Positions 16,711-32,278 of a DNA stretch of 33,460 bases are shown piece after piece. The stretch spans positions 1 through 33,460 of the forward strand of contig JAAZKV010000011.1 of assembly GCA_012799645.1 (NCBI GenBank), written 5' to 3'. Numbering within the stretch: the stretch's first letter is position 1; every line of letters starts with the position of its first letter. The DNA comes from Candidatus Iainarchaeum sp. (lineage in GTDB: Archaea; Iainarchaeota; Iainarchaeia; Iainarchaeales; JAAZKV01). The position numbers and the translations under genes were made by a program. Below the pieces are notes generated by a model. That model was not told the DNA's origin. It saw nothing but the letters and a program-made list of their open reading frames with translations, and made no database searches.

Positions 16711-17532
16711 ATGACTAGTATTGAGGCAAGAACTAAAGAAGTTAATGAAATTGTTGAAGATATTAAAGAAATTGATGAAAAGATTGATGAAGTAAATGAT
16801 GAAGAATTGGATAAAGAGTTTGATGAAGAAAATGAAGAAAATGAAGAAGTTGCTGTGGATAGTGGTGCAGGGGCCGAGAATAAATTGCCTTTTCCTAGGG
16901 CTACAATAACTAACCTTATTAGAAAAAATGTTTCAAAAGGTAAGCAAATTAAGGGCACTGTTAAGGATGAAATGAATATTTGGGTTGATTCTTTAATAGA
17001 AAAAATAACCAAAAAAATGGATTCTCAACCGTATACCTTTGTTAATTATGATATGTTAAAAGAAGCAATTGGTCCTTATGAAGGAATGAAAAATTTGAAC
17101 GAACAAAGGGTTGAACTTTTAACAAAAATTAATTCTATCAAAACTCAGTGTGATGAAGTTATTGCAAAAATTGATTCTGATGCAAAGTCAAACACTGTTT
17201 CATTAAATATTAATAATACTGATTTGCCTTTTCCAAAAGCTACAATAACTAACAAAATTAGACAAAATCTTTCACCAGGAAAAACAATTAAAGGTCCTGT
17301 TAAAAGAGGATTGAATGTTTGGCTTGGGGGGATTGTTGAAAGAGTGTCAAAAAAAATGGATTCATATAATTATCCTTACATTGATAGAAGTATGTTCAAA
17401 GAAGCGATTGAACCATATGATACAATAACAGAAATTGAATTGGAGAAAGAAAGAATAATTCAACAAATGCAATCAATGAAAACAATTTGTGATATACTTT
17501 CTTTAGAAATTGATAGAAAATTTAAATTATAG
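16711..17532 (+). CDS. Putative tandem (doublet) histone-fold protein with a coiled coil after each fold
   Basis: Two repeats LPFPRATITNLIRKNVSKGKQIKGTVKDEMNIWVDSLIEKITKKMDSQPYTFVNYDMLKEAIGPYE and LPFPKATITNKIRQNLSPGKTIKGPVKRGLNVWLGGIVERVSKKMDSYNYPYIDRSMFKEAIEPYD resemble archaeal histone layout (LPIAPIGRIIK...). Confidence 0.6.
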   Translation: MTSIEARTKEVNEIVEDIKEIDEKIDEVNDEELDKEFDEENEENEEVAVDSGAGAENKLPFPRATITNLIRKNVSKGKQIKGTVKDEMNIWVDSLIEKITKKMDSQPYTFVNYDMLKEAIGPYEGMKNLNEQRVELLTKINSIKTQCDEVIAKIDSDAKSNTVSLNINNTDLPFPKATITNKIRQNLSPGKTIKGPVKRGLNVWLGGIVERVSKKMDSYNYPYIDRSMFKEAIEPYDTITEIELEKERIIQQMQSMKTICDILSLEIDRKFKL

Positions 17533-17710
17533 TTGCTCTGTCGAAATTGAGTAATCTAAAATTTGGGTTGTTGTTTTTATTTATTTTATTCCGCAGGATG
17601 CCCTTTTTGGGCATCGTGCTTCGTATTGCCCTGCCGAAACTGGGCAATTGATAGAAAATTTAAATTATAATTGCTCTGTCGAAACTGGGTAATTGTCAGA
17701 AAATTTAAAA
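17508..17710. repeat. Dispersed direct repeat including the 3' end of the upstream CDS, with GC-richer hairpins
   Basis: aattgatagaaaatttaaattata(g/a)ttgctctgtcgaaa(t/c)tg(a/g)gtaat at 17508-17555 and 17646-17693; TTGCCCTGCCGAAACTGGGCAA variant between; hairpin GATGCCC-TTTTT-GGGCATC at 17597-17615. Confidence 0.85.
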
Positions 17711-17749: not shown

Positions 17750-18331
17750 TTATAATTTTAAATTCAATTTTTCTCTTATTTTTTTTGCAACTATTCCATG
17801 GGGGTTGTAGAAAAGAAAACTTTCAATTTGTCCAATGTTTTTTGTTTTATTGTTTTTTTTAAGGGTGGCTTTTTCAAAATCAATTATTGTTGGAAAAAAT
17901 TTTCGTTCACCATTAATTATTTTTTCTTGTACTAAAATATTTTTGCCCACTTGGAGTTGGTTGTGGCTTAAATTTATTTTATCAAGCAAAAACAATTGTT
18001 CATACAATTCTTTAATTAATTCGTAAAGTTCTTTTTTTGTAACATCATCAAATTTTTTTCCCAAAACAAAATCAAAAAGTTTTGTCCCGTTAATATGTTC
18101 CATTATTACATAATTTTTTTCAAAATTAATTTCTTCAATTTTTGGTCCTACTCCAACATTATTCGCGCGGATTAGCATTTTTCCTTCGCGCTGTGCAAGA
18201 TCTTTTCTTGGAGATTTTTCTCTAACTTCTTTTAACACAAATTTTTTTCCGTTTTTGTTTTCAATTAACCAAATGTATGAACTCCACCCTTTAGAGAGTT
18301 GGATAATTTTTTTACATTCCATAAATTTCAC
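17750..18331 (-). CDS. Predicted Ser/Thr protein kinase-like protein (COG2112-like)
   Basis: GWSSYIWLIENKNGKKFVLKEVRE; LDKINLSHNQLQVGKNILV; TIIDFEKATLKKNNKTKNIGQ. Confidence 0.65.
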   Translation of the reverse strand: MKFMECKKIIQLSKGWSSYIWLIENKNGKKFVLKEVREKSPRKDLAQREGKMLIRANNVGVGPKIEEINFEKNYVIMEHINGTKLFDFVLGKKFDDVTKKELYELIKELYEQLFLLDKINLSHNQLQVGKNILVQEKIINGERKFFPTIIDFEKATLKKNNKTKNIGQIESFLFYNPHGIVAKKIREKLNLKL

Positions 18332-20015: not shown

Positions 20016-21647
20016 ATGGCTGAAAATGGACAAGATAATGCTTTCATGGGTGAGGGCACAAAAAGAACCAGAGGAAAGGATGCTCAAAGAATGAATATTT
20101 TGATTGCACGAGCGGTGGCTCATGCAGTAAAAACAACTCTTGGTCCTAAAGGAATGGACAAAATGATTGTTGATGATTTGGGGGATGTTACTATCTCTAA
20201 TGATGGGGCAACTATTTTATCAGAAATGGCGATTGAACACCCTGTTGGAAAAATGATGGTTGATGTTGCAAAAACTCAAGATAAAGAAGTTGGGGATGGA
20301 ACAACATCAGCAGTGGTGTTAGCTGGAACTTTTTTAGAGAAAGCAGAAAAATTAATTGATGATTCAATTCATCCAAGTGTAATAATTAATGGGTACAGAA
20401 TGGCTGCTCAAAAATCAAAAGAATTTTACACAGAGATCGCTGACCCGATTGATTTTTCTGATAAAAAATTAATTAAAACAGTAGCACTGACTTCAATGAC
20501 TGGTAAAGCTGCAGAATCATCAGAAGTATTAGCTGATATTGTGGTTAATGCTGTTACTTCAGTTGTTGATAATGTTGACAAAAAAATGATTATTAATGAA
20601 GATAATATAAAACTTGAAAAAAAAACAGGGGGATCACTAAAAGATACTCAACTTGTGAGTGGAATTGTTATTGACAAAGAAATTGTTCATTCTGCAATGC
20701 CAAGAAATATTGCTGATGCAAAAATCGCTTTGCTTGATTTGGCTCTTGAAGTGAGAGAACCAGAGAGTGATGCAAAAATTGAGATCAATACTCCTGAACA
20801 ACTTCAAGCATTTATTGATGAGGAAGAAAGACAACTAAAACAAATGGTTACACAAATAAAAAATGCTGGGGCTAATGTTGTGTTTACTCAAAAAGGAATT
20901 GATGATCTTGCACAACACTACTTGGCTAAAGAAAAAATCATTGCGGTGAGAAGAGTAAAAAAATCTGATATGGATGCACTAGCAAGAGCAACAGGAGCAA
21001 GTATTGTGACAAGCATTAAAGAACTAAATTCAAAAGATTTGGGGTACGCAGGAAAAGTTCTTGAAAGAAAAATTGCAGGGGACAATATGGTGTTTGTGGA
21101 AGGGTGCAAAAACCCAAAAAGTGTATCAATCCTAATAAGAGGGGGAACAGAACACGTAGTTGATGAAGCAGAAAGAGCACTAGTTGATTCAATTGGAGCA
21201 GTGGCTTCAGCAATTGAAATGGGAAAAATACTAGTGGGGGCAGGTTCTTGCGAAATAGAAGTTGCAATGAAATTAAGAGATTATGCAAAAACTGTTGGAG
21301 GAAGAGAACAACTAGCAATAGAAGCATTCGCTGAAGCACTAGAAATAATTCCTAGAACACTAGCAGAAACAGCAGGAATGGATCCAATAGACACTCTAGT
21401 AAATTTGAGAAGTATGCACACAAAAAAAGACGGAAAATATGTTGGGGTAAATGTATACAAATCAAAAGTAGAGGATATGAAAAACGCAAAAGTGCTAGAA
21501 CCACTAAAAGTAAAAACCCAAGCAATAGATTCAGCAAGTGAAGTAGCAGAAATGATACTAAGAATTGATGACATAATTTTAGGATCATCAAAAGCAAAAA
21601 TGCAACCAGGAATGGGCGGAATGGGCCCAAACGGAATGGAAATGTAA
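20016..21647 (+). CDS. thsA: Thermosome subunit (group II chaperonin)
   Basis: [44 protein letters not shown]-terminal [10 protein letters not shown]. Confidence 0.97.
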
Positions 21648-30271: not shown

Positions 30272-30613
30272 ATGGCAGAAAAGAAAGAAGCAAAAGAAAC
30301 CAAAGAGACAAAAGCAACAAAAGGTGAAGCAAAAGCACAAGAAGAGCTTGGTGGAAACTATGTTTTCATTGGGAAAAAAGGAGCAATGGCTTATGTATTA
30401 GCAGTTGTTACTCAATTTGGTGCTGGAGCAAAAGAAGTAATAGTTAAAGCAAGAGGAAAATCAATTTCTCACGCTGTTGATGTTGCAGAAATTGTTAAAA
30501 ACAAGTCTCCTGAAGTTTCTATAAAATCAATAAGTACTTCAACAGAAGAGGTTGTAACAATGGATGGACGACCACTAAAAGTTTCAGCAATAGAAATTGT
30601 TTTGAAGAAATAA
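30272..30613 (+). CDS. albA: Alba DNA/RNA-binding protein
   Basis: [55 protein letters not shown]. Confidence 0.92.
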
Positions 30614-30754: not shown

Positions 30755-32278
30755 TTATTTTTTCTTTTTTGAAAAGAATTTTATTGCTTCTGCTAGTTCT
30801 TTATGGGTTTTTGCATATTTTTCTATTGGTATTTTTTTTGTGTATGCTTCGCAGGCTTGTACAAGTGCGCGTGCTCCTGCGGTTGTTCCTTTTGGGTGTG
30901 CGTGGCATCCTGCTCCCATTGTGGTAATAAAATCAGTGTTTTCCATTACATCAATGAATGGTTTTAGTAGGGTTGGGTTTAGTCCTCCTGAAATTATTGG
31001 ACAACACTTTTTCATTCCTCTCCATTCATCATCTTCAAGTATTGATTGTTGTGAGCGATCAGTGTTTATCATTTTGATTGCGTCCTTATCCATTATTGGT
31101 ATTTTTGACCAATTTTGTTCAAAGAAGTGTCCTTTTGCTTGTACTCTTGAAATATTTTGTGCGGCAGTAATATCTTCTTCTGGTGTTCCGCTCATTTTTC
31201 CTACTCCTGCTGTTCCTGTGTGTACTCCGCTTGCTCCTGCAAGTCTAGCAAATTTTGATAGTACTAGTACTGAGTATCCAATTGGGTTTTCTTTTCTAGT
31301 GAACGCTCCGTGTCCTGCTCTGTGAAAGTGAATAAACACATCAGGGTATTTTCTTCGTAGTGTTTGCACTGCCATCCACCCTGCTGTGATTCCATCAATT
31401 AAAAACGCGTAACTTCCTTTTTCAAATCCTGCGCTACGAATCATTTCACACCTTTGAATCATTGTATCATAATCCGGTGCGGATACATTGAATGAGTGAA
31501 TTTTTTTTTGTCCCGTTTCTTTCACTGCTTTATCCATTGCTTTTTTTACGTGCTCTACCATTTTTTCGTATGGACAAAAATCTTGGTTTGCTTGTGGCTC
31601 ATCATTTTTAACAAAATCTCCTCCTCCAACCCAAAAGTCATAGCACACTTCGGCATACTCCGAGCTTGTTAAACCCATTTTTGGTTTTATTATTGTTCCA
31701 AGAATTGGTCGATTGTACACTCCTAAATATTTTCTCATATCATCAATAGTATAACTTGGACCATCGTATTGTTCTAGCATTGCTGGGGGGAACCAAACAT
31801 CAAGTAATTTTAGTGCAATAATTTCTTTCATGCCGAGAGTGTTTCCCACAATGTAGGTTAAAATATTTTGCACATTTCCTATTCTATCGAACAATCTTGT
31901 TGGGTATGCAATCCAAACAAGATTTTTTTTCAAATCAATTTTGTACACGAGTGCGTTTAGTTTTTTAGAAAAAGGGGTTTCTGTTAGTACAGGAAAGTTT
32001 GTTCCTGTTGATGATTCCGCACTAACTTCAGCACTTGCTTGTAAAAAGTTTAAATTTTTTCCAGGAATTAAATGAAACACACAAAGCATGTATTCTCCAT
32101 TTTGTGGATCTTTCAAATCCAAATTAACATATGCTAATTGGTGCGAATTAAGTGTGCGAACAAGTTTATTTGCACTATTCATAGTTTGTTTGTTTGTTTT
32201 ATTTTTTTTACTAACTGGTTTCTTTTTTTTAATATTTTTTGATTTAATTTTCACGCTTTTTGATTTATTTTTATTCAT
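30755..32278 (-). CDS. rbcL: RuBisCO large subunit, form II/III type (N-terminal Lys-rich extension; alternative start 32182)
   Basis: GTIIKPKMGL, GGGDFVKNDEPQANQDFCPYEKM, IHFHRAGHGAFTR, SGVHTGTAGVGKMSG, CCPIISGGLNP. Confidence 0.96.
   Translation of the reverse strand: MNKNKSKSVKIKSKNIKKKKPVSKKNKTNKQTMNSANKLVRTLNSHQLAYVNLDLKDPQNGEYMLCVFHLIPGKNLNFLQASAEVSAESSTGTNFPVLTETPFSKKLNALVYKIDLKKNLVWIAYPTRLFDRIGNVQNILTYIVGNTLGMKEIIALKLLDVWFPPAMLEQYDGPSYTIDDMRKYLGVYNRPILGTIIKPKMGLTSSEYAEVCYDFWVGGGDFVKNDEPQANQDFCPYEKMVEHVKKAMDKAVKETGQKKIHSFNVSAPDYDTMIQRCEMIRSAGFEKGSYAFLIDGITAGWMAVQTLRRKYPDVFIHFHRAGHGAFTRKENPIGYSVLVLSKFARLAGASGVHTGTAGVGKMSGTPEEDITAAQNISRVQAKGHFFEQNWSKIPIMDKDAIKMINTDRSQQSILEDDEWRGMKKCCPIISGGLNPTLLKPFIDVMENTDFITTMGAGCHAHPKGTTAGARALVQACEAYTKKIPIEKYAKTHKELAEAIKFFSKKKK

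Follow-up and report, generated by a model that had tools for sequence, protein, structure and literature searches.

The window considered here is the whole stretch of DNA that was analysed, 33,460 nt of Candidatus Iainarchaeum sp. (phylum Iainarchaeota, Diapherotrites; contig JAAZKV010000011.1 of assembly GCA_012799645.1). One open reading frame of 273 aa occupies exactly the positions given to it in the first-pass annotation; its features, and the Alba gene that was likewise correctly placed in the window, are as follows.

16711..17532, + strand: whole gene, candidate tandem coiled-coil histone, 273 aa (ATG start; homologues in 69/87 genomes of the phylum)
16711..16878, + strand: acidic N-terminal tail, residues 1-56, net charge -19 (charge count; AlphaFold2 pLDDT <50 at residues 36-55)
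16879..17082, + strand: predicted histone fold 1, residues 57-124, with alpha1 63-71, alpha2 82-105 and alpha3 from 113 (AlphaFold2, Foldseek)
17083..17190, + strand: predicted coil 1, residues 125-160, prolonging alpha3 of fold 1 without a break, with a retained heptad core and a diverged surface (AlphaFold2, heptad register, unit entropy)
17191..17235, + strand: predicted non-helical stretch, residues 161-175, from coil 1 to alpha1 of fold 2 (AlphaFold2, unit spacing)
17224..17424, + strand: predicted histone fold 2, residues 172-238, with alpha1 176-184, alpha2 195-217 and alpha3 226-237 (AlphaFold2 of the doublet and of unit 2 alone, Foldseek)
17425..17526, + strand: predicted coil 2, residues 239-272, of conserved type, terminating in the family [DE]RKF motif (AlphaFold2, unit conservation)
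30272-30613, + strand: Alba (PF01918, E=1.5e-16)

The two repeats (residues 57-161 and 170-272) are 43.6% identical over 101 aa, with a score of 96.7 bits (E=2e-32) against 17.3 bits for the best of 100 shuffles. They had been described as ~65-aa repeats with a separate coil of ~35 aa after each; both parts are present but their separation did not survive, the repeat being a fold plus coil of ~100-105 aa in which AlphaFold2 runs alpha3 and the coil together into a single helix, both for unit 1 and for unit 2 modelled by itself. The heptad character of the coils was borne out, since one register, common to both units and to the single-unit relatives, places hydrophobic residues at 89% of a/d positions, and any other register reaches at most 66%. 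The acidic N-terminus also stands, with a net charge of -19 across residues 1-56 in a protein of net charge -11 overall; single-unit relatives have a median net charge of -9.5 over the 30 aa preceding the LPFP motif. Despite variable linker letters, 12 of the 13 doublets have a unit-to-unit spacing of 113 aa and the remaining one of 112, and the linker carries alternating hydrophobic residues (V-x-L-x-L). At unit column 93, which is an 'a' position in the coil core, cysteine occurs in 13/13 first units and 12/13 second units, and 94% of the single-unit relatives have it too.

AlphaFold2 was given an alignment of the 13 doublets and 18 single-unit relatives, and the resulting monomer model has histone topology in both units, as had been anticipated. 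Mean pLDDT is 85.9, with values of ~90 or more through both folds, and helices are assigned to residues 63-71, 82-105 and 113-160 and to 176-184, 195-217, 226-237 and 239-272; modelled alone, unit 2 has a pLDDT of 90.7, and its alpha3 and coil become a single 47-residue helix (unit positions 63-109). The pTM of the doublet model is 0.63, and the mutual placement of the two folds in the chain is uncertain. Foldseek searches of the PDB with the doublet and with unit 2 returned NF-YB/NF-YC, H2A/H2B and other histone chains as top matches at a probability of ~1.0, with E-values of only 0.01-0.1. The sequence-profile link to canonical histones is weak, and the histone assignment therefore leans mainly on predicted structure. 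The Pfam family PF00808 matched 4 of 22 relatives (best E=7e-4) and, separately, a relative in G012/G038 at 20.7 bits, slightly below the gathering cut-off of 21.4 and in the expected alpha1-alpha2 register, the best E-values lying at about 4e-4 to 7e-4; it gave no match to the window protein. An NCBIfam search gave nothing useful for the family, no histones turned up when the PDB was searched by sequence with either the protein or the family profile, and a comparison by hhalign between the family and canonical histones from the phylum was not significant and no better than column shuffles. The similarity to histone profiles that had been expected is thus marginal with PF00808, in a few relatives, and does not extend to the phylum's own canonical histones. 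The earlier description of a histone-fold doublet with a coiled coil after each fold and an acidic tail nonetheless agrees with the confident models, the Foldseek matches and conservation across the phylum, and the structural predictions support the view that both repeats are histone folds.

Members of the family occur in 69 of 87 Iainarchaeota genomes, and in 23 of the 25 good ones, mostly as one gene with one unit. Doublets are found in 13 genomes of two families. The window's own family has a doublet instead of a single unit in ten genomes, one of which holds a contig-edge fragment only, and the second family has it in part of its genomes, namely four (G016, G047, G054, G055); none of the 87 genomes carries both forms together. 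A tree of 79 units, built on 104 columns, places all 13 first units in a single clade (100/99) and likewise all 13 second units (100/98), with the fragment L012 inside the second-unit clade. As each set of units is a single clade, one fusion explains both families; the tree thus supports origin of the doublet by one duplication and fusion, and two independent fusions in the two families are rejected. The second units fall among the single-unit proteins and the first units lie on a longer branch. L012, from a doublet genus, had the look of a single unit; since its frame begins at the end of the fetched stretch, it was taken to be a contig-edge fragment. No relatives were found in viral contigs and plasmids at the sensitivity used, and a scan of genome contigs aimed at coiled-coil histones of other phyla returned only records of the Diapherotrites type. 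In the related family f21 of the same class (G075-G084), the coiled-coil histone is absent from 10/10 genomes, most of which have two canonical histones rather than one.

To judge by their sequences, the two units have become specialized since the duplication. At seven columns, all 13 first units share one residue and all 13 second units another (unit 1/unit 2: 9 R/K, 33 E/G, 34 M/L, 56 F/Y, 58 N/D, 62 L/F, 82 L/I), and at column 33, where all second units have G, 50 of 51 single-unit proteins have E. Conservation of the fold is high in both units (mean entropy 0.60 and 0.67 bits); coil 2 is equally tight at 0.67 bits, and coil 1 is loose at 1.46 bits. Within coil 1, however, core positions average 0.61 bits and the remaining, surface positions 1.80 bits, and this combination of a tight core and a drifting remainder suggests continued packing of coil 1 with a loss of surface contacts.

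R17, K24, K27 and K31 mark columns that hold only K or R across the 77 aligned units, which include both forms. Coiled-coil histones were described in 2024 by Schwab et al. (PMC11390915), who list Iainarchaeota among the phyla that have them, and one such protein, HMfC (E3GZL0) of Methanothermus fervidus, bridges DNA in vitro (PMC11390915). The spacing of their published contact residues K35, R45 and K49 falls on R17, K27 and K31, a correspondence of residue numbers rather than of an alignment to HMfC; among random offset sets, 1.3% match equally well. At the position of a fourth contact residue, R32, 65 of 77 units have N and 12 have R or K. Like coiled-coil histones, each unit of the doublet consists of a histone fold followed by a long C-terminal coiled-coil helix (AlphaFold2, heptads), with conserved basic residues on the alpha1 face at matching spacing. 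The doublet and its single-unit relatives also share the strongly acidic, disordered tail that is common but not universal among coiled-coil histones (PMC11390915); HMfC itself lacks it. On this evidence the single-unit relatives are coiled-coil histones in all but a direct test of homology to HMfC. The window protein differs in that coiled-coil histones as described have a single fold per chain, whereas it has two folds, each in a specialized unit, and in that its coil 1, unlike theirs, is eroded outside the core. Because 13 doublets have two folds in one chain, we regard the window protein, on this evidence, as a tandem variant of the coiled-coil histones and not as a standard member. The first-pass annotation had proposed a distinct architecture; this holds for the tandem form, which is the only new element, and not for the single fold-plus-coil unit with an acidic tail, already known from the coiled-coil histones. 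Doublets and coiled-coil histones are treated separately in the articles on archaeal histone diversity (PMC13260811), double folds (PMC13088155) and histone categories (PMC11390915), and term searches of these three texts found no coiled-coil doublet; full-text searches on coiled-coil, bridging and Iainarchaeota histones yielded PMC11390915 alone.

Other known systems resemble the protein in part. The doublets of Methanopyrus kandleri (HMk), Halobacteria and Marseilleviridae also have two folds per polypeptide, but these pair in cis as pseudodimers with no coil between them, whereas in the window protein a coil of ~36 residues and a linker of 15 residues intervene and the second fold has a coil of its own. 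Acidic archaeal doublets have a median length of 143 aa (PMC13260811). MJ1647, a bridging histone of Methanococcales, forms a tetramer with two opposed DNA-binding heads through a C-terminal extension (PMC11390915); it shares with the window doublet an extension beyond the fold but has one unit per chain instead of two, and the Methanococcales and coiled-coil histones show little sequence similarity to each other (PMC11390915). The canonical histone of the same genome (L001, G000 contig 22) has the histone fold in common with the doublet but is ~68 aa long, without coil or acidic tail, and its profile comparison with the doublet family by hhalign is not significant.

Four identical chains of an ordinary coiled-coil histone are thought to form a two-headed DNA bridge. 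Our working hypothesis, which we hold to be somewhat better than even, is that the window protein is a tandem-duplicated coiled-coil histone of which two chains form such a bridge, each contributing to both heads. In each half, the invariant basic alpha1-L1-alpha2 face of the histone fold would be turned toward DNA, and the coiled-coil helices would assemble with other coils into a bundle keeping the two DNA-binding heads apart. Coil 1 would run from fold 1 toward the opposite head, where the 15-residue linker would lead into fold 2, and two doublet chains would suffice in place of the ancestral four. With one chain in both heads, assembly would thus be freed from the need for four separate chains to meet. 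DNA binding and bridging are suggested by analogy with HMfC. The protein most likely works like a coiled-coil histone in which a single chain provides both of the bridge's DNA-binding heads; from the models we infer a two-chain assembly. The acidic tail probably modulates DNA binding, presumably in an inhibitory role. A more specific proposal, that the protein is an asymmetric single-chain DNA-bridging histone whose folds make unequal contacts, an obligate bridge of unlike units having replaced the ancestral homotetramer, we advance tentatively, judging it rather less probable than the tandem bridge itself.

The chief alternative is a pseudodimer of the M. kandleri kind, in which folds 1 and 2 form a handshake in cis, the coils lie side by side and two chains bridge through them. 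Known histone doublets do pair in this way (PMC13088155), the V-x-L-x-L hydrophobics of the linker could run back along the coil, and specialized units are what a pseudo-heterodimer would be expected to show. The predicted geometry argues against it: coil 1 reaches ~36 residues (~54 Å) past the fold and the 15-residue linker spans at most ~52 Å when fully stretched, distances taken from the AlphaFold2 secondary-structure assignment and not from a measured model, so that a return to fold 1 would demand an almost completely extended linker and appears strained. The opposite head could be reached without this, for which reason the chain-spanning arrangement is favoured. Moreover, no known histone doublet was well matched over its full length among the Foldseek hits listed, where the Melbournevirus mini-variant chain 9cvt_A aligned to the doublet with a TM of 0.36 over 136 columns and a Marseillevirus LCMAC102 H2A-domain protein with a TM of 0.16-0.20. 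An index of charge complementarity between the alpha2 N-terminus and L2, calculated for fold 1-fold 2 and like-like pairing, was uninformative and was discarded because single-unit proteins also scored as self-repulsive. On balance we consider pairing in cis unlikely, though it is the rival that fares best. That the protein no longer organizes DNA and has become an adaptor or assembly factor, as in the TAF and Sos histone folds, is a good deal less probable still; histone folds have frequently been put to uses that do not involve DNA (PMC13088155), the net charge of the protein is negative (-11) and the DNA face might be covered by the acidic tail, but invariance of the basic residues presumed to form that face in 77/77 units would be unexpected of such a role. 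A helical coiled-coil protein with no true relation to histones, to which the empty PDB sequence searches and the hhalign result might point, is very improbable given the Foldseek probability of ~1.0 for histone folds and a PF00808 score just below cut-off in the correct register.

If the two-chain bridge is correct, the doublet offers a simple system for testing bridging against wrapping of DNA by histones, and a fused, specialized bridging pair beside single-unit sister lineages would provide a natural before-and-after comparison of how units diverge once fused. To the knowledge of the authors of a review, no archaeal histone is known to heterodimerize obligately (PMC13088155).

In ~18 genomes of the phylum, the contig with the coiled-coil histone also carries Alba, at a distance of 8-27 kb, and their sharing of the window is therefore a matter of conserved gene order and not of chance. 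A gene encoding a protein-kinase fold with weak Kdo/APH matches (17750-18331, - strand) is downstream of and convergent with the histone gene, an arrangement seen across the phylum, in 37 of 37 places where both occur; it is a conserved neighbour of the histone, and a functional link between the two is possible. The thermosome gene (Cpn60_TCP1; 20016-21647, + strand) follows the histone gene downstream in the same orientation in 26/26 places with both. The window also contains a gene for the RuBisCO large chain (30755-32278, - strand; PF00016, E=1e-94). Finally, a 48-nt stretch spanning the end of the histone coding sequence and its 3' flank (17508-17555) recurs 138 nt downstream at 17646-17693 with 94% identity, and more copies resembling it are found at 17625-17709.
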